A stretch of 41,756 nucleotides of DNA from positions 1 through 41,756 of the forward strand of contig JAAYUS010000124.1 in assembly GCA_012517605.1 (NCBI GenBank). The letters run 5' to 3'. The position numbers were made by a program, and so were the translations under genes. The DNA is from Bacteroidales bacterium (GTDB taxonomy: Bacteria > Bacteroidota > Bacteroidia > Bacteroidales > VadinHA17). The notes under the pieces are model-generated. The model ran no database searches. It saw only the letters and a program-made list of their open reading frames with translations, and was not told the DNA's origin. This document shows, piece by piece, positions 8,920 to 26,559 of the stretch (the stretch's first letter is position 1; each line of letters opens with the position of its first letter).

Positions 8920-10230
8920 TTAACCTTTTATGGCAATACCTTTCCTTTTCATTCCCTCCCTGTATGCATCAAGAGCCCTTGCCCTTGCAAAAACATGTTC
9001 AACAATTTTCCGGGGATAGCCGGGTTTGTCATAATCACCGGCCCATTTTTTTACATATTCATAGTTCCTGTCGAATTTCATCTGCTGCGTTTCGGGGTTG
9101 AAAATCCTGAAATAAGGTGCGGCGTCACAGCCCGTTCCGGCAGCCCATTGCCAGTTGCCGTTGTTTGATGAGAGTTCATAATCGAGGAGCTTTTCTGCAA
9201 AATACGCTTCGCCCCATCTCCAGTCAATAAGCAGGTGCTTGCAGAGAAATCCGGAGGTTATCATCCTTACCCTGTTGTGCATGTATCCCGTCTCGTTAAG
9301 TTGGCGCATCCCTGCATCAACTATGGGATATCCGGTTTCACCGCGGCACCACCTGAGGAATTCCTTTTCATCATTCCTCCATACTATATCATCGTACAGG
9401 CTCTTAAAGTTATTGCTTACAACTCCCGGGAAACTGAAAAGTATCTGCATAAAGAATTCCCTCCAGATAAGCTCGTTCAGAAAAATGAGATTCTGATCAA
9501 GGGCCGTTTTTACAAGCTTTCTAACGCTTATAGTTCCAAAACGCAAATGGGGAGAGAGATAGCTTGTCCTGTCGGCAGCAGGCAAATCGCGGTACTTATG
9601 ATAATCAGGAATTACAGAGAGATCATATGGTTTAACCTTAACCTGACTTTCAGAGAATCCCAGTTCATTCAATGACGGAAATGGTAGATCTGATTTGAAG
9701 AAATTATTCTCTCTGTGAGCAGGGGACTTAACTGTTTCAGACACTTTTTCAACCAGCATTTTCATCCACCTGTTTTTATATGCGGTAAACACCGTGTACG
9801 GTGTATTGTCAGGTTTGGCAATTTCATTCTCTTCAAAGATAACCTGGTCCTTGAAACTCAGGAACCTGATGCCCTTTATGCCAAGCAAATTCTGTACAGA
9901 GCTGTCACGTTTTGTGGCATATGGCTCATAATCCCTGTTGACAAAAACAGTATCGATGTCATATGATTCTGGGAGTTTTCTCCATATTTCTTCCGGTTTT
10001 CCTTTAACCACAAGGAGAGAACTTCCCGATATTTTGAGTTTATTGTTGATTGATGAAAGGTTTTTGTAAATGAAATTTATTCTTGCATCATTCGGAGCAA
10101 GCTCATCCGTAATGTTTGTATCGAAAATGAATAACGGCAAAACCGGGATATCAGACGATAATGCTGCATTCAACGCTGTGTTGTCATCGAGCCTGAGATC
10201 CCTTCTGAGCCAAACAATATTTATTTTCAT
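8920..10230 (-). CDS. phrB: deoxyribodipyrimidine photolyase, class I CPD type
   Basis: 436 aa, slightly shorter than the usual 450-480. The N-terminal Rossmann domain for the antenna chromophore starts IVWLRRDLRLDDNTALNAAL. The C-terminal FAD/DNA-binding part contains LIWREFFMQILF, WCRGETGYPIVDAGMRQL, GYMHNRVRMITSGFLCKHLLIDW, NGNWQWAAGTGCDAAPYFRIFNP and YVKKW, all hallmarks of the cryptochrome/photolyase superfamily. It repairs cyclobutane pyrimidine dimers using blue or near-UV light. Its start overlaps the stop of the upstream CrtI-type gene by 4 nt (ATGA), so it belongs to the carotenoid operon. This links DNA repair to pigment synthesis in one light-stress transcript. Confidence 0.93.
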   Translation of the reverse strand: MKINIVWLRRDLRLDDNTALNAALSSDIPVLPLFIFDTNITDELAPNDARINFIYKNLSSINNKLKISGSSLLVVKGKPEEIWRKLPESYDIDTVFVNRDYEPYATKRDSSVQNLLGIKGIRFLSFKDQVIFEENEIAKPDNTPYTVFTAYKNRWMKMLVEKVSETVKSPAHRENNFFKSDLPFPSLNELGFSESQVKVKPYDLSVIPDYHKYRDLPAADRTSYLSPHLRFGTISVRKLVKTALDQNLIFLNELIWREFFMQILFSFPGVVSNNFKSLYDDIVWRNDEKEFLRWCRGETGYPIVDAGMRQLNETGYMHNRVRMITSGFLCKHLLIDWRWGEAYFAEKLLDYELSSNNGNWQWAAGTGCDAAPYFRIFNPETQQMKFDRNYEYVKKWAGDYDKPGYPRKIVEHVFARARALDAYREGMKRKGIAIKG

Positions 10231-11702
10231 GGTTTGCTGTATTGCTCAACCCTTTCGGTTGCCAGTCTGGAGCTTATTATTACCATTGGCAGTCCTGTCC
10301 CGGGGATTGTTGAAGCTCCCGCATAAAATACATTTAGGAATTCCTCATCAAAATTCTTCGGACGGAAACCTCCTATCTGAAGCATTTTGTGTGAAAGGCC
10401 AAGTCCGCTTCCCCTGTGGAGATTGAACTGATCGCGCCAGTCAACAGGGGTGTAGACAGTCCTGGATATTATCTCAGGCCTGATATCCTTTTTTATCCTA
10501 CCTGAGAAATCATCGATGATGCCATCCACAATGGCATCCCTGTCATCCCAGTTGTTTTTGAATCTCAGGTCAGGGACCGGACAAACGAAGAACAGGCTTT
10601 CACAGCCTTCAGGAGCACAACCGGGGTTTGATCTGGAGAGGACATTTACATAGTAATATGGTTTTTCCATCACACCGGGATGTTTGAACACCTTTTCGGC
10701 ATATTCCCTGTAATTATCGCCGAGATAATAGTTATGGTGACTGATGCCGGGCAGTTTGCATCTGAGACCAAGATAAATTGTGAGTGAACCCATTGTCCAG
10801 TCCATTCTGTCGAGTTTCTCTTGAGAGTATTCTTTTCTTCTGAATACACTGCCCCTGAAAACAGCGGCGTCCCCGTTTACAATTATAATATCAGACCCCC
10901 ATTTCCTGCCATTCTTGTCGACAAGGTACTTCAGGGTTCTTCCTTCAGCAATGAAATCAACTATCTCAGTATTGTAGTGTATTTTTACATTTTCCTTTTC
11001 AAGCTCTTCAACAATACCTTCAACGATTTTGTACATACCCCCTACGACATTGTAATATCCATCGTGCATGAATTCGGTATATGAAAGCAGGGTGTAAACT
11101 GCTGCAGTATCGAAAGGAGTCTTGCCGAGGAAAAAAGCAACAAGAGACAGGATTTCGCGGGCGTCGTTTGATTTAACATAATGGGAAACCTGCTGCCAGA
11201 AATTCCTGAAAATGACAGGCAGGTGCACTGGATTCACTTTCATCAGGGTAAGCAGATAGTCAAGCAATGAATCATAATTACTTTTAATGACTATGTTGGT
11301 GTCGTGGTAGAGCCTCCTGCATTTGTCAAGATACTTTCTCATGCCCTGTTCAAAATCTGGTTCTGTTTCACTGAACTGGGCGGCAAGTTTACTTATATCC
11401 TTATAAAGATGATAGGGAAAGTCATTCTTTCTGAAAGTGACCGAGTATAAGGGATCAAGCTCGTAATATTCAAAGGGCAGCCTGATATTGCATTCCTTTG
11501 CAAAGTTTGTGAATTCGTACGACATGCTGAAAAAGCTGGGACCCGTATCGAAGGTAAATCCGTCCTTTTTAAGCTGGTTTAGCCTTCCTCCTGCATTATC
11601 GTTTTTTTCAACAATTTCAACCCGGTAGCCTTTTTTCGAAAGCCTAAGGGCAGTTGCCAGACCTGCCAATCCGGCGCCGGCTATCAAAACGTTTTTAGCC
11701 AT
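10227..11702 (-). CDS. crtI: CrtI-family carotenoid desaturase (operon copy)
   Basis: 491 aa, normal length for phytoene desaturases. An N-terminal FAD-binding site (VLIAGAGLAGLATALRLSK, then EKNDNAGGR, residues 5-40) and the C-terminal FAD motif FYAGASTIPGTGLPMVIISS place it in the CrtI/CrtD/CrtN superfamily. GFTFDTGPSFFSM is the usual substrate-side motif. In the pathway it would desaturate phytoene towards lycopene, or act as the CrtD-like 3',4'-desaturase of myxol/saproxanthin synthesis. Sequence alone does not settle which, because a second divergent CrtI-family gene lies at 25066-26559. It starts 5 nt after the TPR gene and overlaps the photolyase by 4 nt. It is probably membrane associated. 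Confidence 0.88.
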   Translation of the reverse strand: MAKNVLIAGAGLAGLATALRLSKKGYRVEIVEKNDNAGGRLNQLKKDGFTFDTGPSFFSMSYEFTNFAKECNIRLPFEYYELDPLYSVTFRKNDFPYHLYKDISKLAAQFSETEPDFEQGMRKYLDKCRRLYHDTNIVIKSNYDSLLDYLLTLMKVNPVHLPVIFRNFWQQVSHYVKSNDAREILSLVAFFLGKTPFDTAAVYTLLSYTEFMHDGYYNVVGGMYKIVEGIVEELEKENVKIHYNTEIVDFIAEGRTLKYLVDKNGRKWGSDIIIVNGDAAVFRGSVFRRKEYSQEKLDRMDWTMGSLTIYLGLRCKLPGISHHNYYLGDNYREYAEKVFKHPGVMEKPYYYVNVLSRSNPGCAPEGCESLFFVCPVPDLRFKNNWDDRDAIVDGIIDDFSGRIKKDIRPEIISRTVYTPVDWRDQFNLHRGSGLGLSHKMLQIGGFRPKNFDEEFLNVFYAGASTIPGTGLPMVIISSRLATERVEQYSKP

Positions 11703-11707
11703 ATGTT

Positions 11708-12448
11708 TCAGTTTTTCATTTTTGCCAACAATTTGGGATACAGGTCATCCTTCACATATAAAAATCCCGGTTCGATCTGCAGGATATTTTCATATGTCTT
11801 TTTTGCCTTGTCATATTCTTTCAGATAGGTGTAGGTCTGGCCTATTAAAATCATAAGGCTCATATAATTCCAGTCGCCTTTCAATGAATCAGGGTTCTTT
11901 TCAAGTACCTCTTTTGCCTTGAGGTAGAATTCAAGGGCTTCTTTTTTCGATCCTCCGAATGCAGCAGGCATGTAAAATTCTATATTTCCATGCTGGACAT
12001 ATGCAAGGTAATTTGAAGGATCAAGTTTAAGGGCGGTCTTTGCATTTTCCATGCTTTTTTTCCCGTTGACGGGTGCAGTGACAGGATTAAGTCCGATCCT
12101 GAAGCCATAAAATGCCGATTTATATGCGCTAACCATCGAAAGCATGTATCCGCGTTTTTCAAGAATTTCAAGATTCGCCTGAGCAACTGAAAGATATTTC
12201 CTTGCTTCATCCTTTCTTTCAAACCCGATGCAATAGCCGATATATCCGTACTGATAGTTGACAAGTTCAAGGAGCAAAGCATTATCCTTGTCAGGCATTG
12301 CAGCCATCCTGTCAATGACTGTTTTCCACCTGTCCATCCTGTTGTTTATGTATGCAGAATAAATCTCCGATCCGTAATCAGCTTTAACAGGCAGAAATGC
12401 CATTATGAAAATTACTGACTGGATCAGCCTAAATTTCGCCCCTTCCAT
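11708..12448 (-). CDS. TPR-repeat protein embedded in the carotenoid operon
   Basis: 246 aa from the ATG at 12448, which is preceded by AGGAG about 7 nt upstream. The frame is open to 12763, but that extension lies inside the glycosyltransferase gene and is Cys/Phe-rich without any domain, so I rejected it. A probable signal peptide (FRLIQSVIFIMAFLPVKA) is followed by helical repeats. NAKTALKLDPSNYLAYVQHG, KEALEFYLKAKEVLEKNPD and DKAKKTYENILQIEPGFLYV are recognisable tetratricopeptide units. The gene overlaps the glycosyltransferase by 25 nt and precedes crtI by 5 nt, so it is an integral operon member. No carotenoid enzyme activity is expected; a scaffold or pigment-export role is speculation. 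It is probably periplasmic. Confidence 0.78.
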   Translation of the reverse strand: MEGAKFRLIQSVIFIMAFLPVKADYGSEIYSAYINNRMDRWKTVIDRMAAMPDKDNALLLELVNYQYGYIGYCIGFERKDEARKYLSVAQANLEILEKRGYMLSMVSAYKSAFYGFRIGLNPVTAPVNGKKSMENAKTALKLDPSNYLAYVQHGNIEFYMPAAFGGSKKEALEFYLKAKEVLEKNPDSLKGDWNYMSLMILIGQTYTYLKEYDKAKKTYENILQIEPGFLYVKDDLYPKLLAKMKN

Positions 12449-13518
12449 TGAAATCTCCTGAATATTTTGTTTATGGATGCCCTGTAAATAAAAAGTCCCA
12501 GTGAAAATTGTAAAGGTATAATTAAAAGCAAATTGTAAAACACATTCTGTCTGCTGGCAACGGAAATAATGATCCTTGCAGTGATACAGGCCACAACATA
12601 TGCTGCAAAAATGCTTAACGGCATTGAGGCCAGTACTGCAAGGAAACCAAAGGTTGTAACAAGGAAAAACAGCACAGCCAGAAGGAACGAATTGCCGAAA
12701 AAAGCTATCACGTTTTTTGAAAACCCATTTACCGCATCCCGGAAACCTCTGTACATCCTGCACGAAAGGTCATTGTCACCAAGCAAACAGGAAACATTTT
12801 TCCCGGCTTTTTTGAACATTCTTGCAATGTGGATGTCCTCAACCATGTTGTTCCTTACCTTTTCATGAGGCATGAGTTCCTTGTAGGCGCCTGCCCTGAA
12901 AAACATGAACTGACCGTTTGCTGCCGACAGCGAGATGAAACGTGTACTTCTTACAAGGACCAGTGGAAGCAGTGAAACAAGTATATAGTTCATTACCGGA
13001 ACAGTAATCATTTCGCCAGGTGTTTCAATAAGCTGCCGCGGGAAAGAGGAGATAAGGTCGAGACGCTTTTTATCCGAGAAGGATACTGCCCTTCCAATTA
13101 CATTTCCGGATATTCTGACATCGGCGTCGAGAAAAAGGAAATATTCACCTTTTGCACTTTGTGCGAGGGAATGACAGGCATAATTCTTTCCCAGCCAACC
13201 TTCAGGGAGTCCTGCCGAATCGATTAAACTTATTTTTTTTTCGCGGATTGTATATAATGTTACAATTTCAGGAGTTCTGTCATCCGACTGATCGTCAAAG
13301 ACTATAACCTCAATATTCCTGTATTCCTGTGCAAGAAGATCATCAAGAATGTTCCCGATATTTTCTTCTTCATTCCGGGCAGGAATCAGAACAGAAACGA
13401 GAGGTCCGTCTTTTTTGCCTTCGGCGGGAAGATAAGTCTCAAAAATCAGATTGACGGCTGAGACAAGCAGCTGAATAAAAGCAAAACTGATGACAATATA
13501 TGCAAGTATGGTCATCAT
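12424..13518 (-). CDS. family 2 glycosyltransferase, probable carotenoid glycosyltransferase (CruC/CrtQ-like)
   Basis: 364 aa. One N-terminal membrane helix is followed by a GT-A fold: VSVLIPARNEEENIGNIL, VIVFDDQSDDRT, then LFLDADVRI (the DxD-type metal/nucleotide site), MVEDIHIARMFKKAG and an acceptor-side region. Two or three further helices and FQWKGR near the C-terminus fit membrane GT2 enzymes of the CruC/CrtQ kind. The start is ATGATG at 13518, overlapping the acyltransferase stop. Given its place between an acyltransferase, CruF and CrtI-type genes, it probably transfers a sugar to the carotenoid hydroxyl introduced by CruF. The sugar donor cannot be read from the sequence. Confidence 0.8.
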   Translation of the reverse strand: MMTILAYIVISFAFIQLLVSAVNLIFETYLPAEGKKDGPLVSVLIPARNEEENIGNILDDLLAQEYRNIEVIVFDDQSDDRTPEIVTLYTIREKKISLIDSAGLPEGWLGKNYACHSLAQSAKGEYFLFLDADVRISGNVIGRAVSFSDKKRLDLISSFPRQLIETPGEMITVPVMNYILVSLLPLVLVRSTRFISLSAANGQFMFFRAGAYKELMPHEKVRNNMVEDIHIARMFKKAGKNVSCLLGDNDLSCRMYRGFRDAVNGFSKNVIAFFGNSFLLAVLFFLVTTFGFLAVLASMPLSIFAAYVVACITARIIISVASRQNVFYNLLLIIPLQFSLGLFIYRASINKIFRRFQWKGRNLG

Positions 13519-14141
13519 TTCAGGGCAAGTCTGATATTGTCAGCCCTGCAGGCTGAAAAGAAAGTGTTGTATTCTTTCTCAAGGTTTGCCGTGGAAAGCT
13601 CATTCCCTGAAAATTCAGTGAAATGGATTATCAATCCGGGTTTTTCTTCCGAAAAATACTCTATAAAATTTGCCACAAAGATTATATGGATCGTATTCTG
13701 CACTCTGCCAAGTACATAACCAACCCCTTTTTCAAACCTGATGTTGTGATTATGCATTGAATCGAATCTTCCCTGTGGGAACATAAGTACGAGATTCCCT
13801 GGGTTTGCAAGGAGTTCGGCAGTATAATTGAGCGATTCTATAACTGATGATGAGCCTTTCTTAACCGAGTAACCTCCTGTTTTGTTGAAGAACATATGCT
13901 TTTTCAGCTGCTCCTCGAGCATCATGAAATAGAATTTCCGTTTGAACACTTTCATATTGAGATATTCTGCCCAGAAGCCGTCCCACCAGCTGAAATGGTT
14001 TGAAATGATCAAAACAGGCAGTCCCCTGTCGGTGAATTCACCTTTGATCCTTACCCCGTGGAAGTTCCTTTTTATTTTCAGGCAGGTGTATAATCTGAAA
14101 AAGGCATATATGAGTTTGTTATGTGAAGCTTTGTATATCAT
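13515..14141 (-). CDS. PlsC-type acyltransferase, probable carotenoid-glycoside acyltransferase
   Basis: 208 aa. The HX4D catalytic motif is present (H49 to D54 in NHFSWWDGFW) and the phosphate-site motif FPQGR is at 121-125, as in lysophosphatidate-acyltransferase-like enzymes. It is short, about the size of CruD of green sulfur bacteria, which acylates a glycosylated carotenoid. Here it sits directly upstream of the glycosyltransferase gene (4-nt overlap) and directly after cruF (4-nt overlap), so acylation of the carotenoid sugar is the best guess. A housekeeping role in phospholipid synthesis is possible but less likely from the context. It is expected at the cytoplasmic membrane. Confidence 0.78.
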   Translation of the reverse strand: MIYKASHNKLIYAFFRLYTCLKIKRNFHGVRIKGEFTDRGLPVLIISNHFSWWDGFWAEYLNMKVFKRKFYFMMLEEQLKKHMFFNKTGGYSVKKGSSSVIESLNYTAELLANPGNLVLMFPQGRFDSMHNHNIRFEKGVGYVLGRVQNTIHIIFVANFIEYFSEEKPGLIIHFTEFSGNELSTANLEKEYNTFFSACRADNIRLALK

Positions 14142-14812
14142 TGAATAAATCTGAAGATCAAATAAAGGATCAGGAAAAAGGAACCCTGGATGATAAATAT
14201 AAACGTTGCTATCCTGTTCGAGAAACGCAGGCCGGCAATTTTAATCACAGTATGAAATATCAGGGCAAAAACAAACCACATGATATAATTCTGAGCGGGG
14301 ATGCCATCCTCAAAACTCCACATCCTCATTATCGGGGCCATCTGCTCCATGATCAGGTCATACAACACCATTAATGCTGAGGCAGCTGGTATTTTCAAAA
14401 CCCCGGGAACTGATAATTTATCAGCGACAATTGCAGTGCAGTATGTAAGAATCAACCAGTTCACTCCTATAAGCAGCGGGGTATTGAATATTTTCAAACC
14501 GAGGCCGTTTCCGTATTCATAATTTCCGAATATCCTGCCGGTATTAACTCCTGCAGTTTCCACAAAAAAGCCTGCAAGCAGAATTGCACCAAACACAATT
14601 GCATCCTTTCCGGAGTTTTCAGACCGGTGATATGAAATGATAGCTGCAAAGCAAAGCAGCAGGGCAAGAGGAGTCAGTGAAATAAAAATGTCACGCGTAA
14701 GATCAACGGCTGTACCAGCAACGCCCACAGCAAAAAAGACAATCAGAAGAACTTTAGAGATACCGGTTCTTTCGTCAACATATTTCTTTATCTGAGCTGT
14801 AGTGATATCCAA
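14138..14812 (-). CDS. cruF: carotenoid 1',2'-hydratase-like integral membrane protein (CruF family)
   Basis: 224 aa with about seven hydrophobic segments. The central motif GRIFGNYEYGNGLGLKIF followed by NTPLLIGVNWLILTY, plus DLIMEQMAP and the C-terminal YIMWFVFALIFHT, are the conserved blocks of the CruF / carotenoid-biosynthesis membrane family (PF04240). CruF adds water across the 1',2' double bond of the acyclic psi end of gamma-carotene-type pigments, and haloarchaeal relatives do the same on C50 pigments. It starts 2 nt after the lycopene cyclase gene. Its presence implies that the product keeps at least one acyclic end, so the cyclase probably acts as a monocyclase. Confidence 0.85.
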   Translation of the reverse strand: MDITTAQIKKYVDERTGISKVLLIVFFAVGVAGTAVDLTRDIFISLTPLALLLCFAAIISYHRSENSGKDAIVFGAILLAGFFVETAGVNTGRIFGNYEYGNGLGLKIFNTPLLIGVNWLILTYCTAIVADKLSVPGVLKIPAASALMVLYDLIMEQMAPIMRMWSFEDGIPAQNYIMWFVFALIFHTVIKIAGLRFSNRIATFIFIIQGSFFLILYLIFRFIQ

Positions 14813-14814
14813 TT

Positions 14815-15513
14815 CTATTTATTTTTCCGGGTACTTATCAGTTTCTGAAAATAATCCATAAGCAGTAGGTTAATGAATATCAGGCTGAATCCATATGCAA
14901 AATCCTCGACAGGGATTGTAATCAACCTGATGCCTGTTATCTCAGCCTCATTATACCATACAACCTCTCCTTCGATAAGGCTTCCCGTGAGTATCCCGTT
15001 GACAATGATGAAAGGGATTAGTATAACAAGGAACGATAAATAAAATTCATTTAAAAGTTTCCGTTTATGAAATAGTGAAATCATAAGGACAAGCATCATA
15101 AGTGAAAAATATGTGACTGAATATGCTTTGTCGTGTTCTGCCATGATGACTGCTGCCTGGATAAATATAAGGGCAAATGTAATTGTTCGTGTTGTTTTAT
15201 CCTTAAGTCCCATGCCCGGGAAATAGGCTTTCAGAACGAAATGGATAAAAATGCTCGAATATGGGATAAGGATGAAGAAAAGCCACTCCTCGAGAGGCAG
15301 ATGAGCTAAAACGATGCCGGTATGATAGCGCGGATTGAATCCCCATATTCCTTTTGCTGCAAAAAAACTGTCGAATGCAGCAAAGAAGACTCCTGTGATA
15401 ATTATGGATGGGAAAAGTGCAGGCCAGTATCTGTAAAAAGCCACTTTTCTGTCGAAGCTAAGCAATAAGGGGATGCTTATGGAAGCCAGCACAAGGGCAA
15501 GATACAACGGCAT
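14815..15513 (-). CDS. crtY: lycopene cyclase, fused CrtYc-CrtYd (CarR-like) membrane type
   Basis: 232 aa, with six to seven membrane helices. It contains two copies of the lycopene cyclase domain: the first carries GIWGFN (55-60) and PLEEWLFF (73-80), the second VVWYNEAEITG (184-194) and PVEDFAYGF (201-209). The paired P(L/V)E(E/D) motifs are the signature of heterodimer-derived cyclases, here as one polypeptide. It converts psi ends of lycopene to beta rings. It is flanked by crtZ (5-nt gap) and cruF (2-nt gap). Whether it makes gamma- or beta-carotene is not decidable from sequence; CruF next door favours one ring. Confidence 0.9.
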   Translation of the reverse strand: MPLYLALVLASISIPLLLSFDRKVAFYRYWPALFPSIIITGVFFAAFDSFFAAKGIWGFNPRYHTGIVLAHLPLEEWLFFILIPYSSIFIHFVLKAYFPGMGLKDKTTRTITFALIFIQAAVIMAEHDKAYSVTYFSLMMLVLMISLFHKRKLLNEFYLSFLVILIPFIIVNGILTGSLIEGEVVWYNEAEITGIRLITIPVEDFAYGFSLIFINLLLMDYFQKLISTRKNK

Positions 15514-15518
15514 GGCTT

Positions 15519-15968
15519 TCAGTTGAAATATCTTTTGCTGAAAACAAGAAGCCCGAAATTATTGAAATCTGTCCTGTTCTTTGGCCGGTGATGTGCATCA
15601 TGAGCCTTTATTATGGCTTTGACATACGAATTTTTCGGATTCCTGAAAAAAGGCAGCCTGTGATGATAAACCACATCATGGAAAATGAAATATGTTATGC
15701 CGTAAAGAGTTATGCCTGCTCCTGCAGATATCATGTATGGATTGCCTGCCGAAAAACCCCATATAATAAGCACTATGGCCGGTATGGCGTATATCAGGAA
15801 AAAAAGGTCGTTTTTCTGCAAAACAGGTTTCCCTGCTATATCCGTAAGATGATGATCCTTGTGAAGAGGCCACAGGAAGCCATGCATTACATATTTATGG
15901 TTCGACCATGCAACGAATTCCATAAATGCAAATGCGGCAGCAATGATGAGTATCAGAGTCAATATCAT
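15519..15968 (-). CDS. crtZ: beta-carotene 3-hydroxylase (CrtZ, fatty acid hydroxylase superfamily)
   Basis: 149 aa with membrane helices and the full di-iron histidine set: H24-x4-H29, H36-x2-HH (39-40), H97-x4-HH (102-103) and H123-x2-HH (126-127). HKYVMHGFLWPLHKDHH is a classic CrtZ block. It introduces a 3-hydroxyl on the beta ring, using O2 and an electron donor, so the pathway product is an oxygenated xanthophyll and synthesis needs at least some oxygen. The gene overlaps idi by 4 nt. Confidence 0.93.
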   Translation of the reverse strand: MILTLILIIAAAFAFMEFVAWSNHKYVMHGFLWPLHKDHHLTDIAGKPVLQKNDLFFLIYAIPAIVLIIWGFSAGNPYMISAGAGITLYGITYFIFHDVVYHHRLPFFRNPKNSYVKAIIKAHDAHHRPKNRTDFNNFGLLVFSKRYFN

Positions 15969-16501
15969 TCCGGTAGGAGTTTGTTTTCAGAAATGTGTGA
16001 ATTCACCCTTTCATAGATCATTTTAAACCAATATGTATAATCATCGGGGTTCTCCCGGATGTCTTTATGAAGCTCATCGAATGACACAGCTTCCCATTCC
16101 TCGACCTCTTCAGTGTTTATAACAGGCTCCATGGCTGTTATACCCAGAAACACATGATCAAATTCATGCTCTGTAAGGTCATTGTCAAGTTTTTCAATGT
16201 AGGTAAAAGCAAACAGTTCCCTGAGATCACATTCGAGGCCCATTTCCTCTCTGAGCCGCCTGTGGGCGGCATCTGTTGATGATTCTCCGGGATGGGGATG
16301 GGTACAGCAGGAATTTGTCCAGAGCCCTTTTGAATGGTATTTGTCCAGGGCACGTCTCTGCAGTATCCATTTGCCTTCCGGATTTATGATGAACACTGAT
16401 ACAGCCCGGTGAAGAAGTGCCTTTTTATGTGCTTCCATTTTCCCTGCAACTCCTTTCGGATTATCGTTTTCATCGACAAGTATTACCAATGGTTCTGTCA
16501 T
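15965..16501 (-). CDS. idi: isopentenyl-diphosphate delta-isomerase, type I
   Basis: 178 aa Nudix-fold enzyme. The catalytic cysteine lies in TNSCCTHPHPGE (C66), the Nudix helix in AHRRLREEMGLEC, and the second catalytic region in EHEFDHVFLG, with a glutamate before FDHVF. It interconverts IPP and DMAPP, supplying the 5-carbon units for prenyl diphosphates. It lies 11 nt after crtB and overlaps crtZ by 4 nt. No GGPP synthase gene (crtE) is present in the window, so the C20 precursor must come from elsewhere in the genome. Confidence 0.95.
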   Translation of the reverse strand: MTEPLVILVDENDNPKGVAGKMEAHKKALLHRAVSVFIINPEGKWILQRRALDKYHSKGLWTNSCCTHPHPGESSTDAAHRRLREEMGLECDLRELFAFTYIEKLDNDLTEHEFDHVFLGITAMEPVINTEEVEEWEAVSFDELHKDIRENPDDYTYWFKMIYERVNSHISENKLLPE

Positions 16502-16512
16502 AGCATGTGATT

Positions 16513-17367
16513 TCAGTTCCGGCTGATTAAAGGCATTCCGAGCTTCGATACTATAAGTGCCCTGATAAGCAAAAGCATTTTTACCGCATCAGGTACCCTG
16601 ACCCGTTTTTTCATCAGTTCCTTTGCCGGCGTCCTCCTTATTATTTTAAGGAGGTTCCTGTAATAAAAGTAAGCTGTAAGAACTCCTGTTTTAACATTCC
16701 CTGGCAGTTTTTCGATCCCGTATAATGAGGATTGAAAATCACTTTCAACCTCATCAACTATCTTTGCTTTAACATCGTCGTTAAATCCGTTTTCAAAGGA
16801 TTGGTGAAAATACTGCCTGTTAAGAATCTCCAAGTCGTCTTTTATATCACGGAGGAAGTTGACCTTCTGAAATGCGGCCCCGAGTTTTCTGGCTGGTTCT
16901 TCCAGTTCCCTGTAAAGTAGCTCATCTCCCCTTACAAAAACTTTAAGGCACATAAGGCCTACAACTTCGGCGGAACCATAGATGTAATCATCAGTCTCAT
17001 CCTTGGTTTTATGGCTTTGTTTAATGAGGTCGGTTTTCATGCTTTTCAGAAAAGCCTGAATAAGATCGTCTGAGATATTGTATTTTCTTACAGTAAGCTG
17101 AAATGAATTCAATACAGGATTCAGGCTGATTCCCTTCTCAACAGCGTGATAATAATCGTTCTCAAATTTCTGAAGCAGGTCTTCCTTGTTAAAAGCATGA
17201 AAAGTATCTACAATTTCATCGGCAAGACGCACGAAGCCGTAAATGCCATAGATGGCATCCTGCGTCTCCCTGTCAAGAAGCCTTACAGCGCTTGAAAATG
17301 ATGTGCTGTAGGAACTTGTTAAGAGTGTACTGGTCCTATATGATATTTCACTGTAAGGGTCAGTCAT
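16513..17367 (-). CDS. crtB: phytoene synthase (CrtB)
   Basis: 284 aa, all-alpha prenyl synthase fold. The two Asp-rich motifs are intact: DEIVD at 50-54 and RDIKDD at 173-178, the latter within KVNFLRDIKDDLE. YGSAEVVGLMC is also characteristic of trans-isoprenyl head-to-head synthases. It condenses two GGPP to phytoene, the first committed carotenoid step. The gene is 35 nt downstream of a 75-aa membrane protein gene and 11 nt upstream of idi. A second, quite different member of the same superfamily is at 24118-25053. Confidence 0.92.
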   Translation of the reverse strand: MTDPYSEISYRTSTLLTSSYSTSFSSAVRLLDRETQDAIYGIYGFVRLADEIVDTFHAFNKEDLLQKFENDYYHAVEKGISLNPVLNSFQLTVRKYNISDDLIQAFLKSMKTDLIKQSHKTKDETDDYIYGSAEVVGLMCLKVFVRGDELLYRELEEPARKLGAAFQKVNFLRDIKDDLEILNRQYFHQSFENGFNDDVKAKIVDEVESDFQSSLYGIEKLPGNVKTGVLTAYFYYRNLLKIIRRTPAKELMKKRVRVPDAVKMLLLIRALIVSKLGMPLISRN

Positions 17368-17402: not shown

Positions 17403-17630
17403 TCAATTGCTTTTGTTTAGCCTTTGGTTTAATTTTTTCAGTTCTTCAATTATGTCCTTATAGAAAACATTGTTCCTGTAAGCCATCATTATCAGTTTTA
17501 CCGAAACCAGAAGTATTCCGGCTTCGAGAAGTATATCATGGGTGAGGCCTTTTGTAAAAAGGGCCAGTACAAAAAGCATTAAAGTAATCAGAATAACTAT
17601 TATGGATCCGATGTCAAAATATTTGCGCAT
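17403..17630 (-). CDS. small two-helix membrane protein leading the carotenoid operon
   Basis: 75 aa. Two hydrophobic helices (about residues 9-27 and 32-50) are followed by a charged, probably cytoplasmic helix (DIIEELKKLNQRLNKSN). I do not recognise a named family. It lies 35 nt before crtB, with no terminator between, and is the first gene after the 257-nt region that should hold the operon promoter. Its position suggests a part in the pathway or its membrane organisation, but this is inference. Confidence 0.65.
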   Translation of the reverse strand: MRKYFDIGSIIVILITLMLFVLALFTKGLTHDILLEAGILLVSVKLIMMAYRNNVFYKDIIEELKKLNQRLNKSN

Positions 17631-20756: not shown

Positions 20757-21473
20757 ATGGTAAAATACTTTAATGTTCTGTTTTTTGTGATGATGCTGGT
20801 AATGAATTACCTGGCAAATGCCCTTCCGCTTAATAACAAGACAACAGGCGAACTGTCTGACTCCTTTCCCAATCTGTTTGTACCTGCAGGGATCACATTT
20901 TCGATCTGGGGGGTGATCTACATTCTGCTCCTGATCTTCACTGTTTTTCAGTTCACAGCCAGGGGGAAAGAGGCGTCGGCTGAAATAGGATGGCTCTTTG
21001 CAATATCATGCATTCTGAATGCTTTGTGGATTGTCTTCTGGCATTACGGGAAACTGCCTCTCTCACTACTTGTAATGGCCGGACTTCTTTTGACCCTTAT
21101 TTATATCGGACTGACAATCAATAAATTGCCGTATGGAATTATAAAGGCATCTTTCGGGATTTATCTTGGATGGATATGCATTGCCACAATAGCCAATGTT
21201 ACTGCATTGCTTGTATATTACGGATGGAACGGATTTAATATCTCACAGGAGATTTGGACAATAGTAATGATTTTTGCAGGGACCCTTATCGCTTCCGTGG
21301 CAATGTTCCGGATTGACAATCCATTTACAGGATTAGCTGTAATCTGGGCTTTTATCGGCATTGCCATTAAAAGACAGGATGACCACAGAACAATATTCAT
21401 CGCGGCTTTGATTGCAATGTTTGTGGTAGCCTTTGTCACAGTCTGGAGTTTTTTCAGAAAAGAACCTGCTTAA
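20757..21473 (+). CDS. tspO: TspO/MBR-family membrane protein (tryptophan-rich sensory protein)
   Basis: 238 aa with about six to seven hydrophobic helices, longer than the 155-165 aa of classical five-helix TspO. FVPAGITFSIWGVIYILL, ILNALWIVFWHYGKLPLSLL and YLGWICIATIANVTALLVYYGW match the conserved TspO blocks. Bacterial TspO binds porphyrins and related ligands, and in purple bacteria it lies in the carotenoid/photosynthesis cluster and affects pigment gene expression. Here it follows rluA by 33 nt and converges on the CarH-like gene with a 6-nt gap. A role in light or tetrapyrrole sensing is plausible but inferred. The extra length suggests the extended subfamily of heterotrophic bacteria. 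Confidence 0.8.
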   Translation: MVKYFNVLFFVMMLVMNYLANALPLNNKTTGELSDSFPNLFVPAGITFSIWGVIYILLLIFTVFQFTARGKEASAEIGWLFAISCILNALWIVFWHYGKLPLSLLVMAGLLLTLIYIGLTINKLPYGIIKASFGIYLGWICIATIANVTALLVYYGWNGFNISQEIWTIVMIFAGTLIASVAMFRIDNPFTGLAVIWAFIGIAIKRQDDHRTIFIAALIAMFVVAFVTVWSFFRKEPA

Positions 21474-21479
21474 ATTTGA

Positions 21480-22361
21480 TTATTTAACTTTGAGCAGTTT
21501 TCTGAGATCACTTTCGTTCCTGCATATATTTAAGTGATATTGTTTTCTTTTTTCCGCCATATCTGCAAGGGCGCCGGCAACGATTATTCTTTTACTTTGG
21601 AAGGCATTTCTTAATTCCTTTAGAAATAAGTCCGGATCAGCAATTGGGAGCACAGAAAGAACACCTGTAATAATAATATCAGGATCCCATACACGGGCTG
21701 ACTCCGTTGCAGCCAGAAGAGGGGTTGACTGGCCCAGATAAAGTACTCTGTGACCCTCCTTGCGGGTTATATAAGCATAATATAATAATCCCAGTTCATG
21801 AAGTTCTTTTTCCGGGAGGAACAGCATTACTTTTTTGCTACCATCAACCGGAGGTTCGTTCAGGTTATCGAATGCGGCGATGAGCCTTCTCCTGAAGATG
21901 TTTGAAATGAAGTGTTCCGAGCCGATATTTATCATTCCCGTATGCCACATCATCCCCACGCGGTCAAGAAATGGGAAAACGATATCTGAGAATGTTTTTT
22001 CAACGCCAAACATAATCACTGCCTTAAGGAGGATCTCATTTACCGCAACTTCATCAAACTTTGTCATTGCTGATAAAAGTAATAGAATGAAATCATCATT
22101 TTTTGTTTTTGTAAGTAAAACGTTGGCTGTGTTTGAATCCAGGTCATTAACTGACATTTCGGCTATCTGTGATATCCTGTAGCCGCTCTTCAGCAGAACG
22201 GATATGTTAAGTAATTTACGGAGGTCTTCATCTGAATACCTTCTCCTGTTAGTGGAGGTACGCCCGGGGATGGTCAGGCCGTATCTTTTTTCCCAGATCC
22301 GGATTGTGTCAGGTTTTATTCCGGTCAGTCGTTCCAGATCATTCAGGGTATAATATTCCAT
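21480..22361 (-). CDS. carH: CarH-type B12-dependent photoreceptor repressor (MerR HTH + B12-binding)
   Basis: 293 aa. Residues 3-70 form a MerR winged helix (YYTLNDLERLTGIKPDTIRIWEKRYGL). The middle helical domain has W139, H140, E149 and H150, exactly the W-H-x8-EH pattern that caps and later ligates adenosylcobalamin in characterised CarH. The C-terminal Rossmann domain has E186-x-H188-x2-G191, a conservative variant of the B12 motif DxHxxG, plus the downstream serine in GVLSVLP. In CarH the dark, AdoCbl-bound tetramer represses carotenoid genes, and light breaks the Co-C bond and releases DNA. Its position between two carotenoid gene sets fits this job. It converges on tspO. Confidence 0.88.
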   Translation of the reverse strand: MEYYTLNDLERLTGIKPDTIRIWEKRYGLTIPGRTSTNRRRYSDEDLRKLLNISVLLKSGYRISQIAEMSVNDLDSNTANVLLTKTKNDDFILLLLSAMTKFDEVAVNEILLKAVIMFGVEKTFSDIVFPFLDRVGMMWHTGMINIGSEHFISNIFRRRLIAAFDNLNEPPVDGSKKVMLFLPEKELHELGLLYYAYITRKEGHRVLYLGQSTPLLAATESARVWDPDIIITGVLSVLPIADPDLFLKELRNAFQSKRIIVAGALADMAEKRKQYHLNICRNESDLRKLLKVK

Positions 22362-22450
22362 AGCCCGAAAGTTTTATTTAAAAATAATGAAAATCAAAAT
22401 GATATGTTAATCTGGGCAAAGAGAATCCCGATTATCAGCAGAAAATATAA

Positions 22451-22555
22451 AACCGCTAAGGGAACGCGAAGCTCAGCAAAGTACTCAAAGTCGGGATATA
22501 GAAAATATCAACTTTGTGATTTTACAGATGAAGCTTTGCGATCCCCTTAGCGGTT
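22451..22555. repeat. GCAAAG-type inverted repeat, copy 2 (long hairpin)
   Basis: Outer arms AACCGCTAAGGG (22451-22462) and CCCTTAGCGGTT (22544-22555) are perfectly complementary over 12 bp. The inner segments AACGCGAAGCT and AGCTTTGCGAT extend the pairing with two mismatches. GCAAAG and CAAAG words lie in the loop side. It sits between the fasciclin terminator hairpin and the carH start. Confidence 0.65.
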
Positions 22556-22559
22556 GAAC

Positions 22560-22586
22560 AGGGAGGTCTTTTTACCAGCCCTCCCT
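22560..22586 (-). terminator. probable terminator of the fasciclin gene
   Basis: Arms AGGGAGG (22560-22566) and CCTCCCT (22580-22586) with a 13-nt loop lie 17 nt beyond the stop at 22604. There is no good U-tract after the stem on the minus strand, so the call is moderate. The long inverted repeat follows directly. Confidence 0.5.
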
Positions 22587-22603
22587 ATTAAATTAGTATG
22601 GTA

Positions 22604-23524
22604 TTATTCAGCCGGTAAAAGGACTTCGTCAATTACATGTATCACTCCGTTTGATGCCTGTACATCGGTAGCAATGATTTTGCTGGTGCTGTTGATTGCA
22701 GGAGATGGGCTCAGAGTTACATTAATGTTGCCGTTTAAGGTTGCAACCGGTCCTGCCGAAAGCTGGTTCGATCTTACATTTCCACTGACTACATGGTAGG
22801 TAAGCACAGGAATGAGCTGAGCAGCTGTCAGGTCATTTATCCCAGATATGCCAAGTGTGGTAAAGAGTTTTTCGAATGCGGCGTTTGTCGGGGCAAATAT
22901 TGTAAAAGGACCTGCTCCGCTGAGGGTTTCGACAAGACCTGCTTTTACAACAGCCTGTACAAGAATGCTGAATGATTCGTTGGCAAGTGCAATGTCAACA
23001 ACTGTTGGTGGAAGAAGGACCTTGTCAATTGCATGTATCACGCCGTTCTTCACGTCAACGTCGGCTGCTACGACATTTATATCCTTATTTAGCTTTACAC
23101 CACCCATGGTGCTGATCTTCAGACTTGCATAACTGGTCTGGGCTGGACTCAGAGTATTAATATAGCCATCTGAGAGTGAAGCAGCTTTCTTCTCTTCTCC
23201 TAACACATGATAAAGAAGAATAGGTGTGAGAGTTTCTTTGGACAGATCTGAAATTCCGCTTACTCCTAGCTGTGTGAACAAAGCATTGAAGGCATCATTG
23301 GTAGGGGCAAACACCGTAAAATTACCTTCTCCCTGAAGTACGTTTGCCAGATCGGCTTTGTAAAGAGCCTGGAGAAGAATTGAAAAGTTAGGATCATAAG
23401 ACACATACTCCGCTACTGTCATATCTTTCACGGTAGTCATTTCATCATTGTCTTTTTCACAGGATGTCAGGATAAATAATCCCATTATCACTGCAAGGCT
23501 TGTTAAGAGAGTCGTCTTTTTCAT
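22604..23524 (-). CDS. lipoprotein with two fasciclin (FAS1) domains
   Basis: 306 aa. The lipobox TSC places the lipidated cysteine at residue 22. Two FAS1 repeats follow (about 37-170 and 172-304), each with the H1/H2-like boxes: GNFTVFAPTNDAFNAL and PFTIFAPTNAAFEKL, then LLYHVLGEE and LTYHVVSGN, and a closing GVIHAIDKVLLP and GVIHVIDEVLLP. FAS1 proteins mediate adhesion and, in some cases, bind carotenoids or other hydrophobic ligands. It is in the interval between CarH and the second synthase/desaturase pair, with its own upstream region of 174 nt. Confidence 0.9.
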   Translation of the reverse strand: MKKTTLLTSLAVIMGLFILTSCEKDNDEMTTVKDMTVAEYVSYDPNFSILLQALYKADLANVLQGEGNFTVFAPTNDAFNALFTQLGVSGISDLSKETLTPILLYHVLGEEKKAASLSDGYINTLSPAQTSYASLKISTMGGVKLNKDINVVAADVDVKNGVIHAIDKVLLPPTVVDIALANESFSILVQAVVKAGLVETLSGAGPFTIFAPTNAAFEKLFTTLGISGINDLTAAQLIPVLTYHVVSGNVRSNQLSAGPVATLNGNINVTLSPSPAINSTSKIIATDVQASNGVIHVIDEVLLPAE

Positions 23525-23611
23525 TTTATTCTATTTTTAATTGGTTACTTATTTTGAACAGTAAACATGAAAATGACGAAATATGTTCGTGAAAAAACAA
23601 TAAATAGCGGA

Positions 23612-23661: not shown

Positions 23662-23698
23662 AATATTTTAAAAGTGAATGTTAAAAAATGTTAAAATA

Positions 23699-24117: not shown

Positions 24118-25053
24118 TTAACTGAATTTTTCAATTGTTTCCCAAACTCTCCGTCTGGTCTCTTCAGGGGAAGGGTTGAGCTCATATGTGGAGAAATTTC
24201 CTCTTTCAGGGTTTATCCTTTCAAAAACCATCAGATACAGCCGGAAAATGATCTCGAGGCTTAGCTGGTAGCGTGGTTCCATCTTTGGCTTTATGTCTTC
24301 TATTATTATAAGTGTTTTCTTTCTGTACTCGTCCGCCAGTTCATAATATTCCCTTATCAGATTCCTGAATCCATCTGTTACCGGACTGCCCTGTGCAATG
24401 TTCCTGAGAACTTTCCGGGTAAGCCCGTACTTTGCAACAAGTTCATCAGCAAAATAATTAAGGTTATTGAACTGATCCTTCTGAAAATCTCTTATAATAT
24501 GAACAAGATAACTGAACATGGCGCAGGGAGTTGCAGCTTCCCTGACGTCAAAGGACGGCTCTTCGTATGTTTCGCCGTTCTTTGTTATTCCGGTGAGATG
24601 GACAAAAATTGATGCCGGTGCAACCGATGCCCCTTTTGAGTATTCAATGAAATCGTTCAATGTCGGAAATCCGTCATTGTTGATATCATAGATCATCGAC
24701 TTTGCAAAATCTTCAATGGGCCACAAAGGGATCCTGAACCTTTCAATTGTCTTGATAAGCTCAATTTTATCAGGATTACAGTCGTCTGTGATTATAATCA
24801 TTTTAAGCCACTCATTAACATCCGCGACAAACTCCTTTCTGTCTGAGGGCATGATGCTTCTGTTTGCTGCTTTATAATTGTCGATGAGGTCATCAATTGT
24901 ACGCATGAATTTATAGCATGTCTTTGCGGCGCAATATCTTTCCTCATCCCAGAATTTTGCAGCAATCAAAATATTCGGATGATCCAGGATTCCTGTAAAA
25001 TCAATTGAATCGAAAATCTCTTTGAAATTATTTCCTTTTGAGTTGGTTGACAC
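24118..25053 (-). CDS. second squalene/phytoene-synthase-family enzyme
   Basis: 311 aa. Both substrate-binding Asp motifs are intact: DDLID at 54-58 and RDFQKD at 188-193, with NLNYF just after, so it is probably active. It is clearly distinct from CrtB at 16513-17367: the spacing and flanks differ, with WDEERYCAAKTCYKFMRTID and YSKGASVAPASIFVHLTG. It should join two prenyl diphosphates head to head. The product could be squalene, dehydrosqualene or phytoene; sequence does not decide. It is 12 nt downstream of a CrtI-family gene, so a C30 or alternative C40 carotenoid branch is a reasonable inference. Confidence 0.85.
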   Translation of the reverse strand: MSTNSKGNNFKEIFDSIDFTGILDHPNILIAAKFWDEERYCAAKTCYKFMRTIDDLIDNYKAANRSIMPSDRKEFVADVNEWLKMIIITDDCNPDKIELIKTIERFRIPLWPIEDFAKSMIYDINNDGFPTLNDFIEYSKGASVAPASIFVHLTGITKNGETYEEPSFDVREAATPCAMFSYLVHIIRDFQKDQFNNLNYFADELVAKYGLTRKVLRNIAQGSPVTDGFRNLIREYYELADEYRKKTLIIIEDIKPKMEPRYQLSLEIIFRLYLMVFERINPERGNFSTYELNPSPEETRRRVWETIEKFS

Positions 25054-25065
25054 TTTAATCGGGAT

Positions 25066-26559
25066 TTATTTGTGTGTTTCTTTAAGAATTCTCTCTGAAA
25101 CCAATTTAGCTGAAATAAGGACATTGGGTATGCCATTGCCCGGATGGGTGCTGCCTCCGACAAAATAAACGTTAAGGTATTTGTCATGGCGGTTATGGGG
25201 ACGGAAATAGCCCATCTGAAGAATATTGTGGCCAAGGCTTCCGAAGACAGATCCTCTTGATATATTGCATATATTCTGCCAGTCCGCGGGAGTCAGGCAT
25301 ATTTCGGTCTTGATATGTTCCTCAAAATCTTCAAGTCCCAGCTTTTTCAGCCGCGAAATTACTGATTTCCGTGTTCTTCTTACAATTTCATCCCATTCCT
25401 GCCTGAACCTGGGATCAAGATGCCCGGCTGCAACAATTACAGACAATGCGTCGCATCCTTCAGGAGCCGCCGAAGGGTCACTCCTGGCCGGTGCATGAAC
25501 ATAAAAGCTCGGGACATCACTTACCGATTTATCCCTGAAGATCCTGTCGAGGCCCTCCCTGAATCCATCTGATAAAAACACATTGTGATGATCAAGAAAA
25601 GGATATGTTTTATCCATTCCCCAGTGAAAACAGATTGCCGAGCATGAGTATTTAAGACTATCCAGATGTTTCGACATTCTTTTTCCGGGCAACAGTTCCC
25701 GGTAAACATAAGGCAGATCGGCATTGGCAACAATAATATCCGCATTGACCACTGTACCGTCGTCAAGTTCTATCCCGCCGGCTTTATTCCCTTCCGGCAT
25801 TATCTTTTTCACCGGACTGCTGAAATTGAATTCAACACCCGACTCTGATGCGGCATTGTACAGCTTTTCAGGAATTGAAAAAAGTCCTCCTGCCGACGGG
25901 AAAAAGCTTCCTTCAGTCAGTTCTGCTGCCGGCACCATTGAAAAAAGTGCGGGGGAGTTAAAAGGACTTTGTCCCACATATATATTCTGAAATGTAAATG
26001 CCATAAGAAGATGAGGATGGCGGAAGTACTTCCGTGCATAGTCAAAATGAGGAGTAAATGCCTTTATCCTGAAAAGAAACGGTATGTTCCGGAAATTGAC
26101 TAGCTGAAACAGGTTGTAAAAATTTCTGTCGATCAGATTCGTCATGCTTGAGGTAAATATTTCATAGCCCTTAGCTATGTACTTCCTGTAATTCTGATAG
26201 CTGCCCGGTTCCGTCTTTTCGAGCTGCTCCTTCATCCTTGCATTATCGGTTGTAAAATCAAGGAATGAATTGTTGTCAAACCAGATCCTGTAAAGATTCT
26301 CAAGAGGAATTAAATCCTTTCCTTCTTCAAGTTTTATATTCAATGATTTGAAAACCTCATGATAAATACCCGGCATCAAGACCATTGTTGCACCAAGATC
26401 GAACCTGTATCCATCCCTTTTTATCTGACCGCAGCGGCCCCCGGGAGAAGGGTTCTTTTCATAAACCCTGACTTTGTATCCTTCCCTTGCAAGATAAACG
26501 GCAGTGGTCAATCCTCCTATTCCTGCACCGATTATAACTGCCGTTTTGTTTTTACCCAT
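25066..26559 (-). CDS. second CrtI-family desaturase, divergent from the operon copy
   Basis: 497 aa. The FAD site AVIIGAGIGGLTTAVYLAREG and EKNPSPGGR (7-42), and the C-terminal VYFVGGSTHPGNGIPNVLIS, are typical of CrtI enzymes. Central features GQSPFNSPALFSMVP, FFPSAGGLFSIPEKL and CSAICFHWGMD followed by FYVHAPARSDPSAAPEG look more like the canonical phytoene desaturases of proteobacteria and fungi than does the operon copy. It may therefore be the true phytoene desaturase, with the operon enzyme doing a later step, or it may act on a C30 product of the adjacent synthase. It heads a unit with that synthase (12-nt gap) and possibly the PH protein. It diverges from the alpha/beta hydrolase over a 200-nt gap. 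Confidence 0.86.
   Translation of the reverse strand: MGKNKTAVIIGAGIGGLTTAVYLAREGYKVRVYEKNPSPGGRCGQIKRDGYRFDLGATMVLMPGIYHEVFKSLNIKLEEGKDLIPLENLYRIWFDNNSFLDFTTDNARMKEQLEKTEPGSYQNYRKYIAKGYEIFTSSMTNLIDRNFYNLFQLVNFRNIPFLFRIKAFTPHFDYARKYFRHPHLLMAFTFQNIYVGQSPFNSPALFSMVPAAELTEGSFFPSAGGLFSIPEKLYNAASESGVEFNFSSPVKKIMPEGNKAGGIELDDGTVVNADIIVANADLPYVYRELLPGKRMSKHLDSLKYSCSAICFHWGMDKTYPFLDHHNVFLSDGFREGLDRIFRDKSVSDVPSFYVHAPARSDPSAAPEGCDALSVIVAAGHLDPRFRQEWDEIVRRTRKSVISRLKKLGLEDFEEHIKTEICLTPADWQNICNISRGSVFGSLGHNILQMGYFRPHNRHDKYLNVYFVGGSTHPGNGIPNVLISAKLVSERILKETHK

Follow-up and report, generated by a model that had tools for sequence, protein, structure and literature searches.

A Bacteroidales CarH homolog has a histidine rare among its relatives and lies beside a fasciclin gene

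CarH of Thermus thermophilus (TtCarH), also named LitR, lies in a carotenoid gene neighbourhood. The histidine that follows a tryptophan in many, but not all, members of CarH/class I LitR gives TtCarH a bis-His light state, and the words "semi-conserved histidine" stand in the title of a paper published by Takano and co-workers in 2016. Three or four tandem 11-bp repeats mark the target promoters of TtCarH and CarHBm. Among B12 photoreceptors, the residues published at the place of this histidine (TtCarH H132) include Arg, Gln and Tyr (excerpt of PMC11796333), and the TtCarH H132A variant is disputed, having been reported both as dissociating and as mostly tetrameric (excerpt of PMC10442372). 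For CarH in Bacteroidetes, the matches listed among open-licence papers comprised one general review and nothing specific; light-induced carotenoids are reported in a Chryseobacterium (excerpt of PMC7064467). Exposure of Mycobacterium kansasii to light switches on crt genes, two fasciclin genes and a photolyase-tspO-mmpL locus, and the excerpted text states that its authors knew of no earlier report linking fasciclin to light or carotenoids (PMC9861118). MliR was considered as a possible relative and dropped, as the excerpted description gives it no effector domain (PMC9478572).

We analysed a carH gene in a 41,756-nt stretch of Bacteroidales DNA (the window, meaning that whole stretch), which is contig 159 of draft genome G000 (3.4 Mb, 94.6% complete). 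An earlier note on this DNA had called the product CarH-like, and homology to TtCarH, residues and predicted fold all agree with that identification. The gene and its key codons, placed by alignment with coordinates computed from the ORF, are:

21480..22361, minus strand: carH, 293 aa from an ATG start, with MerR DNA-binding, four-helix and Rossmann B12-binding domains
21942..21947, minus strand: codons TGG CAT for W139 and H140 (TtCarH W131 and H132)
21912..21917, minus strand: codons for E149 and H150 (TtCarH E141 and H142)
21798..21800, minus strand: codon for H188, the predicted lower axial ligand (TtCarH H177)

The best solved relatives of window CarH were the TtCarH structures (3whp/5c8d; phmmer, E ~2e-26); identity to TtCarH is only 26-28%. 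Because phmmer aligned residues 3-251 to TtCarH, W139, H140, E149, H150 and H188 stand at homologous places and are no chance motif. The earlier note had named these five as light-switch residues, with H188 in an E-x-H-x2-G motif, and had proposed an alignment with Thermus CarH. We ran it; over 249 residues the note's numbering proved exact and all five residues were kept, pairing in order with TtCarH W131, H132, E141, H142 and H177. The near-identical spacing that it claimed was also found: the Glu and His follow the Trp at +10 and +11 in both proteins, and the lower-ligand His lies 38 residues past H150 here versus 35 in TtCarH (H142 to H177).

The Wx9EH motif of class I LitR/CarH is present in the four-helix bundle (W139, E149, H150), together with the His after the Trp, H140, which is likely, from its position, to be the post-light cobalt ligand. 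The lower-ligand motif E/DxHx2G reads E186-L-H188-E-L-G191, the downstream GG motif reads GA (second Gly to Ala), and the MerR domain bears RxWE(K/R)RY, with R21, W23, E24 and R26 invariant in alignment A1. Pfam matched MerR_1 (4e-17) and B12-binding_2 (1.5e-7); its Rossmann B12-binding model gave a marginal match, under the cut-off (0.0023). The library's top NCBIfam match was CarH NF052513, a narrow equivalog model rather than a family definition; it scored 106.9 bits, where the cut-off is 400.

An AlphaFold2 model built with 40 homologs reached a pLDDT of 93. Foldseek ranked full-length TtCarH first, with TM-scores of 0.85-0.89 (~2.4 A) to most TtCarH B12-domain chains among the matches listed and 0.76 for 3whp. 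Homology, residue set and predicted fold are established for window CarH. At the positions of the TtCarH dimer salt bridge R176-D201 and of G160, the window protein has L187, S212 and N168, and of the four interface residues R176, D201, G160 and G192 it keeps only the last, as G203. Because R176-D201 and G160 are absent, a TtCarH-type tetramer cannot be assumed.

We consider it probable that the gene encodes a CarH-type AdoCbl photoreceptor repressor, with the fasciclin gene and the crt-photolyase operon described below as its likeliest targets. In the dark, AdoCbl made by a PduO-type adenosyltransferase would bind base-off with H188 below the cobalt, its adenosyl group packing against W139 and E149, and the loaded protein would oligomerise and repress. 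Green or blue light would break the Co-C bond, the adenosyl group would depart, and H140 would move in as the upper cobalt ligand; the resulting stable bis-His light state would release the DNA. The adjoining fasciclin gene and the crt-photolyase operon would make up a photo-protection set. We infer AdoCbl binding, light response, oligomer change and targets. A PF01923 (PduO-type) adenosyltransferase occurs in 57/62 genus genomes, including that of the window (contig C110); none was found in the carH genomes G019 and G028, some genomes being incomplete, and no BtuR-type enzyme was found in any of the 12 genus genomes with carH.

Homologs occurred at E 0.001 or better in 42/60 relatives and at 1e-20 in 51/62 genus genomes. 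The genus holds two kinds: kind A, that of the window, in 12 of 62 genomes (including G008, whose carH is in broken pieces), and kind B, by our own count, in 50 of 62. Kind B is ~30% identical to kind A; each of the 24 copies read carries Gln at the H142 place and Ser/Thr at that of H177. The kind-B paralog of the window genome (L004:3363-4265, contig C188) keeps the Trp and, by its residues, is likely a B12-independent regulator; genes of sigma-70 type, a KdsB-like cytidylyltransferase and a chaperonin lie on the same stretch. In family f32 (that of L116; also L236-L262 and G243), we read the best 30 of 111 matches. Twenty-six lacked the lower His, had no crt, photolyase or fasciclin gene within 1.5 kb and mostly read W-L, E-N/S and Q; the four competent ones comprise two next to fasciclin, one next to crtI and one next to neither. 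Judged by these positions, the f32 relatives without the lower His are CarH-like proteins that have lost the B12 ligands. Such losses, in every genus paralog copy read and in 26 of 30 f32 homologs, would fit a window protein that, in the manner of CarA or class II LitR, represses without B12, but unlike those paralogs it keeps all five residues, and we regard this possibility as very improbable.

Competence and gene neighbourhood went together across the phylum. In a pooled set of 159 distinct Bacteroidota homologs, with competent defined as keeping W, E, H and the lower His and neighbours called by tblastn at 1e-5, a crt, photolyase or fasciclin gene lay within 1.5 kb of 80/99 competent versus 3/60 degenerate homologs (Fisher 9e-23, a test that ignores shared descent; two sets supply 50 of the 60 degenerate rows, with 24 from the kind-B paralog of the genus and 26 from one family). 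Two genomes of the genus carry damaged copies: G008 has carH in separate broken pieces (L049), and G025, which keeps crtB, has a short carH remnant with stops (C10:70441-70590). As read from their sequences, these are cases of light-sensor decay.

We then compared the residue at the H132 place. In an even sample of the phylum, 75 of 395 genomes matched at E 1e-30 or better, and 83 CarH-like loci were read. W, E, H and the lower His were kept in 74 of the 83; the H132 place held Gln in 48, Leu in 10, other residues in 24 and His in a single locus, L142. Kind A has both states: His in the window, L005, L006, L007, L050, L051, L052 and the broken L049, and Gln in L008, L009, L018, L145 and L146, with Ser in L010. 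The His codons CAT/CAC and the Gln codons CAA/CAG stand a single base apart (window and ten loci; L010 has a Ser codon). Window CarH is, by its residues, a member of a known family in an unusual state, among the rare His-bearing Bacteroidota proteins.

In the tree, the kind-A rows grouped as a single clade (99/99); it branches near the base of the Bacteroidia homologs, and Gln is more frequent there than any other residue. The His, which marks part of one genus, is nested among Gln relatives. A single origin of the His shared by the genus rows, TtCarH and L142 was rejected (p-AU 4.5e-63); a single clade of the genus His rows was not rejected (p 0.287). The fewest changes at this place were four over all rows and two within kind A, counts that are independent of the root. 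We read the pattern as an apparent early loss of the His in Bacteroidia followed by one or two regains; retention with about five separate losses (our own count on the tree) is the less economical alternative.

Eight of the 99 B12-competent homologs have the His. Seven of the eight have fasciclin within 1.5 kb, and L142 has neither crt nor fasciclin there; the 64 B12-competent homologs read with a crt gene inside this distance all lack the His. Carotenoid linkage, and probably light control, therefore do not need the His. The earlier note had stressed the "complete" residue set. As an argument for light control this is not supported in that form, since the His is neither needed to suspect such control nor typical: it is rare, yet most B12-competent homologs adjoin crt or fasciclin genes, and so light sensors cannot be told from other homologs by completeness.

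The carotenoid genes and other neighbours in the window are:

8920..10230, minus strand: DNA photolyase, last gene of the crt operon, ~11 kb from carH
10227..16501, minus strand: rest of the crt operon, namely NUDIX (idi-like), hydroxylase, lycopene cyclase, CruF-like, acyltransferase, glycosyltransferase, TPR protein and crtI2
16513..17367, minus strand: crtB-like phytoene synthase
17403..17630, minus strand: conserved small ORF upstream of crtB, 75 aa, no Pfam hit
20757..21473, plus strand: tspO, convergent and tail to tail with carH
24118..26559, minus strand: second synthase (SQS_PSY) and second CrtI-type desaturase, near the fasciclin gene

The carotenoid region with tspO and a photolyase-containing operon that the earlier note described is borne out by this map. 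The photolyase also ends the crt operon in L153, L154, L158, L160 and L164. The 75-aa ORF precedes crtB in the window, L153, L158 and L159 and follows crtI2 in L161; from its position it is possibly the first gene of the operon. The SQS_PSY-CrtI pair possibly serves a C30 or squalene-type branch. Outside the window's order, tspO linkage recurs, since three Daejeonella loci (Sphingobacteriales; L147, L148, L149) have tspO homologs; these loci also have crtB, idi and photolyase homologs, and their carH has Ala at the H132 place.

Across the genus, crtB was detected in 17/62 genomes, in 8/12 with carH versus 9/50 without (Fisher 0.002, ignoring shared descent). It was not detected in the carH genomes G023, G019, G008 and G028, some genomes being incomplete, so carotenoid genes cannot be the sole CarH target. 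Bacteroidales are largely anaerobic, and this, together with the keeping of carH where no crtB was detected, would suit a protein that binds AdoCbl chiefly to sense B12 supply or the redox/oxygen state, with light secondary in such a host. The light steps of TtCarH are oxygen-dependent (excerpt of PMC10442372), which points the same way. We nevertheless think such a sensor distinctly unlikely, because carH is linked to photolyase-bearing crt operons and fasciclin genes, and because the His that stabilises the TtCarH light state is present here and missing in most relatives.

The gene directly upstream of carH, which the earlier note had left unnamed, is a steady carH partner. It and the surrounding elements are:

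22451..22555, no strand assigned: ~105-bp element in the fasciclin-carH gap, bounded by 12-bp inverted ends
22604..23524, minus strand: fasciclin gene with two FAS1 domains, conserved carH partner
23563..23588, minus strand: GAACAT-N14-ATGTTT, conserved promoter element 38 nt before the fasciclin start
23679..23694, minus strand: TTAACATTTTTTAACA tandem pair with a 10-bp period, candidate regulator site

In 12/14 kind-A loci, fasciclin is the same-strand gene immediately upstream of carH; the exceptions are L038 in G002, where fasciclin stands on a different contig, and L049 of G008, which is short. Of the 62 genus genomes, 13 have a fasciclin homolog (1e-20 or better), 11/12 with carH versus 2/50 without, and the sole carH genome without one is G008, whose carH is broken. 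With the caveats that shared descent is ignored and some of the 62 genomes are incomplete, the co-occurrence of fasciclin is stronger with carH (Fisher 1.8e-9) than with crtB (4.7e-4). In distant Bacteroidota fasciclin also adjoins carH, in tandem in L087, L112 and L231, which form one lineage, and divergently in L085, L088 and L116, which form another (the tree covers five of the six); it lies near carH in L142 as well. In the order of L087, carH occurs at 1e-30 in 3/128 genomes, all three with fasciclin. Gene linkage and co-occurrence are established for window carH.

An intrinsic terminator parts fasciclin from carH in 12/14 loci, and the two genes are therefore probably separate units; it is absent in the window and in L036. 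The region 22362-22603, which the earlier note had suggested for footprinting, holds the inverted-end element, possibly a small mobile repeat, and no terminator; the conserved promoter elements lie instead upstream of fasciclin. There, GAACA-N14/15-ATGTTT/C stands ~40 nt before the fasciclin start in 10/11 loci (one per carH genome), a pattern that we take to resemble an ECF-type promoter. The fasciclin genes of carH-free genomes (L174, L178) lack this element, and the second G004 copy (L179) has a looser match. Sites of the form GAACAT-N13/14-ATGTTY occurred 1-11 times per genome (both strands) in all 17 genomes searched, with 0-5 in the reversed control; since five of these genomes lack carH, we rejected the pattern as a carH-specific regulon mark.

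The promoter-like distance of the element in 10/11 loci and the terminator in most fasciclin-carH gaps raise the possibility that CarH does not regulate the fasciclin gene and that both belong to one ECF sigma stress regulon, which would explain GAACA-N-ATGTTT. Mycobacterial fasciclin genes with SigK promoters (excerpt of PMC9861118) favour this too. However, fasciclin is tied more tightly to carH than to crtB, and the divergent (L085, L088, L116) and tandem (L087, L112) layouts are usual for a regulator with its target. On balance a shared ECF regulon appears unlikely, and the fasciclin gene stays among the likeliest candidate CarH targets.

Triple 11-bp TnnACA repeats (nnnnTnnACAn), the form of a CarH operator, were absent from the whole window, where only the 10-bp-period pair before fasciclin was found. 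Looser CarH operators are published (excerpt of PMC9304148), so the missing triple repeat weakens and does not exclude an operator here. The TTAACATNNNTTAACA pair (TTAACAT repeats) precedes 7/14 fasciclin genes in carH-bearing genomes (second G004 copy counted), and also crtB (L153, G004); the TTAACAT pair is rare genome-wide, with two sites in G000. TTAACATNNNTTAACA also stands 56-59 nt before a Crp-type gene in L212, L216, L217, L218 and L228 (also L209), in genomes with and without carH. Because of the carH-free cases we do not claim it as the CarH operator. Paper titles indicate that LitR of Thermus acts together with a CRP/FNR protein, and by analogy a shared CRP-CarH circuit via TTAACATNNNTTAACA is conceivable.

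The fasciclin protein is likely a lipoprotein: judging by eye, Cys22 follows an N-terminal signal. Both its fold and its sequence match AstaP (8c18), although the matches to human TGFBIp and periostin are better, and carotenoid is not bound by a cyanobacterial homolog (excerpt of PMC10147662). We therefore rejected the AstaP likeness as a sign of carotenoid binding, which is a guess for this protein. Among the matches listed from open-licence papers we found none linking fasciclin and CarH, the co-mentions of both words being non-bacterial by title. Tentatively, carotenoid genes may not be the only widespread kind of CarH target in Bacteroidota: a surface fasciclin (FAS1) protein may be another, acting perhaps as an adhesin induced by light or as a shield that holds carotenoid, and in one Bacteroidales genus a single base change from Gln to His may have restored the bis-His state in a fasciclin-linked clade.

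Overall, what makes this locus valuable is the natural His/Gln pairs and the fasciclin partner, rather than a complete residue set in itself. Bacteroidota offer a natural experiment on the need for the post-light His, disputed in TtCarH (excerpt of PMC10442372): the B12-competent crt-linked CarH proteins read are without it, and one genus-level clade has both His (window) and Gln (L145, L008) members, so the need for the His is directly testable. If true, a fixed CarH-fasciclin pairing would tie bacterial fasciclin proteins to a signal and to a regulator.

Among known systems, T. thermophilus CarH/LitR (5c8d, 5c8e, 3whp) has the same domain order, fold and five residue equivalents as window CarH. 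The two differ in identity (26-28%), in the R176-D201 pair and G160, absent here, in the triple repeat, not found in the window, and in the fasciclin partner. Chloracidobacterium CtMerR (8jbs) is a MerR-type B12 photoreceptor with a fold in common with window CarH; it has Arg at the H132 place, where the window protein has His, and no bis-His state was observed for CtMerR (excerpt of PMC11796333). Myxococcus CarA and class II LitR belong, like the window protein, to the CarH/LitR family (excerpts of PMC9304148 and PMC9758184), but they are held to be B12-independent, whereas the window protein keeps the B12 residues and the paralog on contig C188 resembles the B12-independent state. The kinds of gene induced by light in M. 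kansasii are those found in the window, although the pigment regulator there is of MarR type (excerpt of PMC9861118). Closest to home, the Bacteroidota W-Q relatives, such as L145 from Bacteroidales UBA4070, share the clade and the fasciclin neighbour of window CarH and have Gln at the post-light ligand place where the window protein has His.
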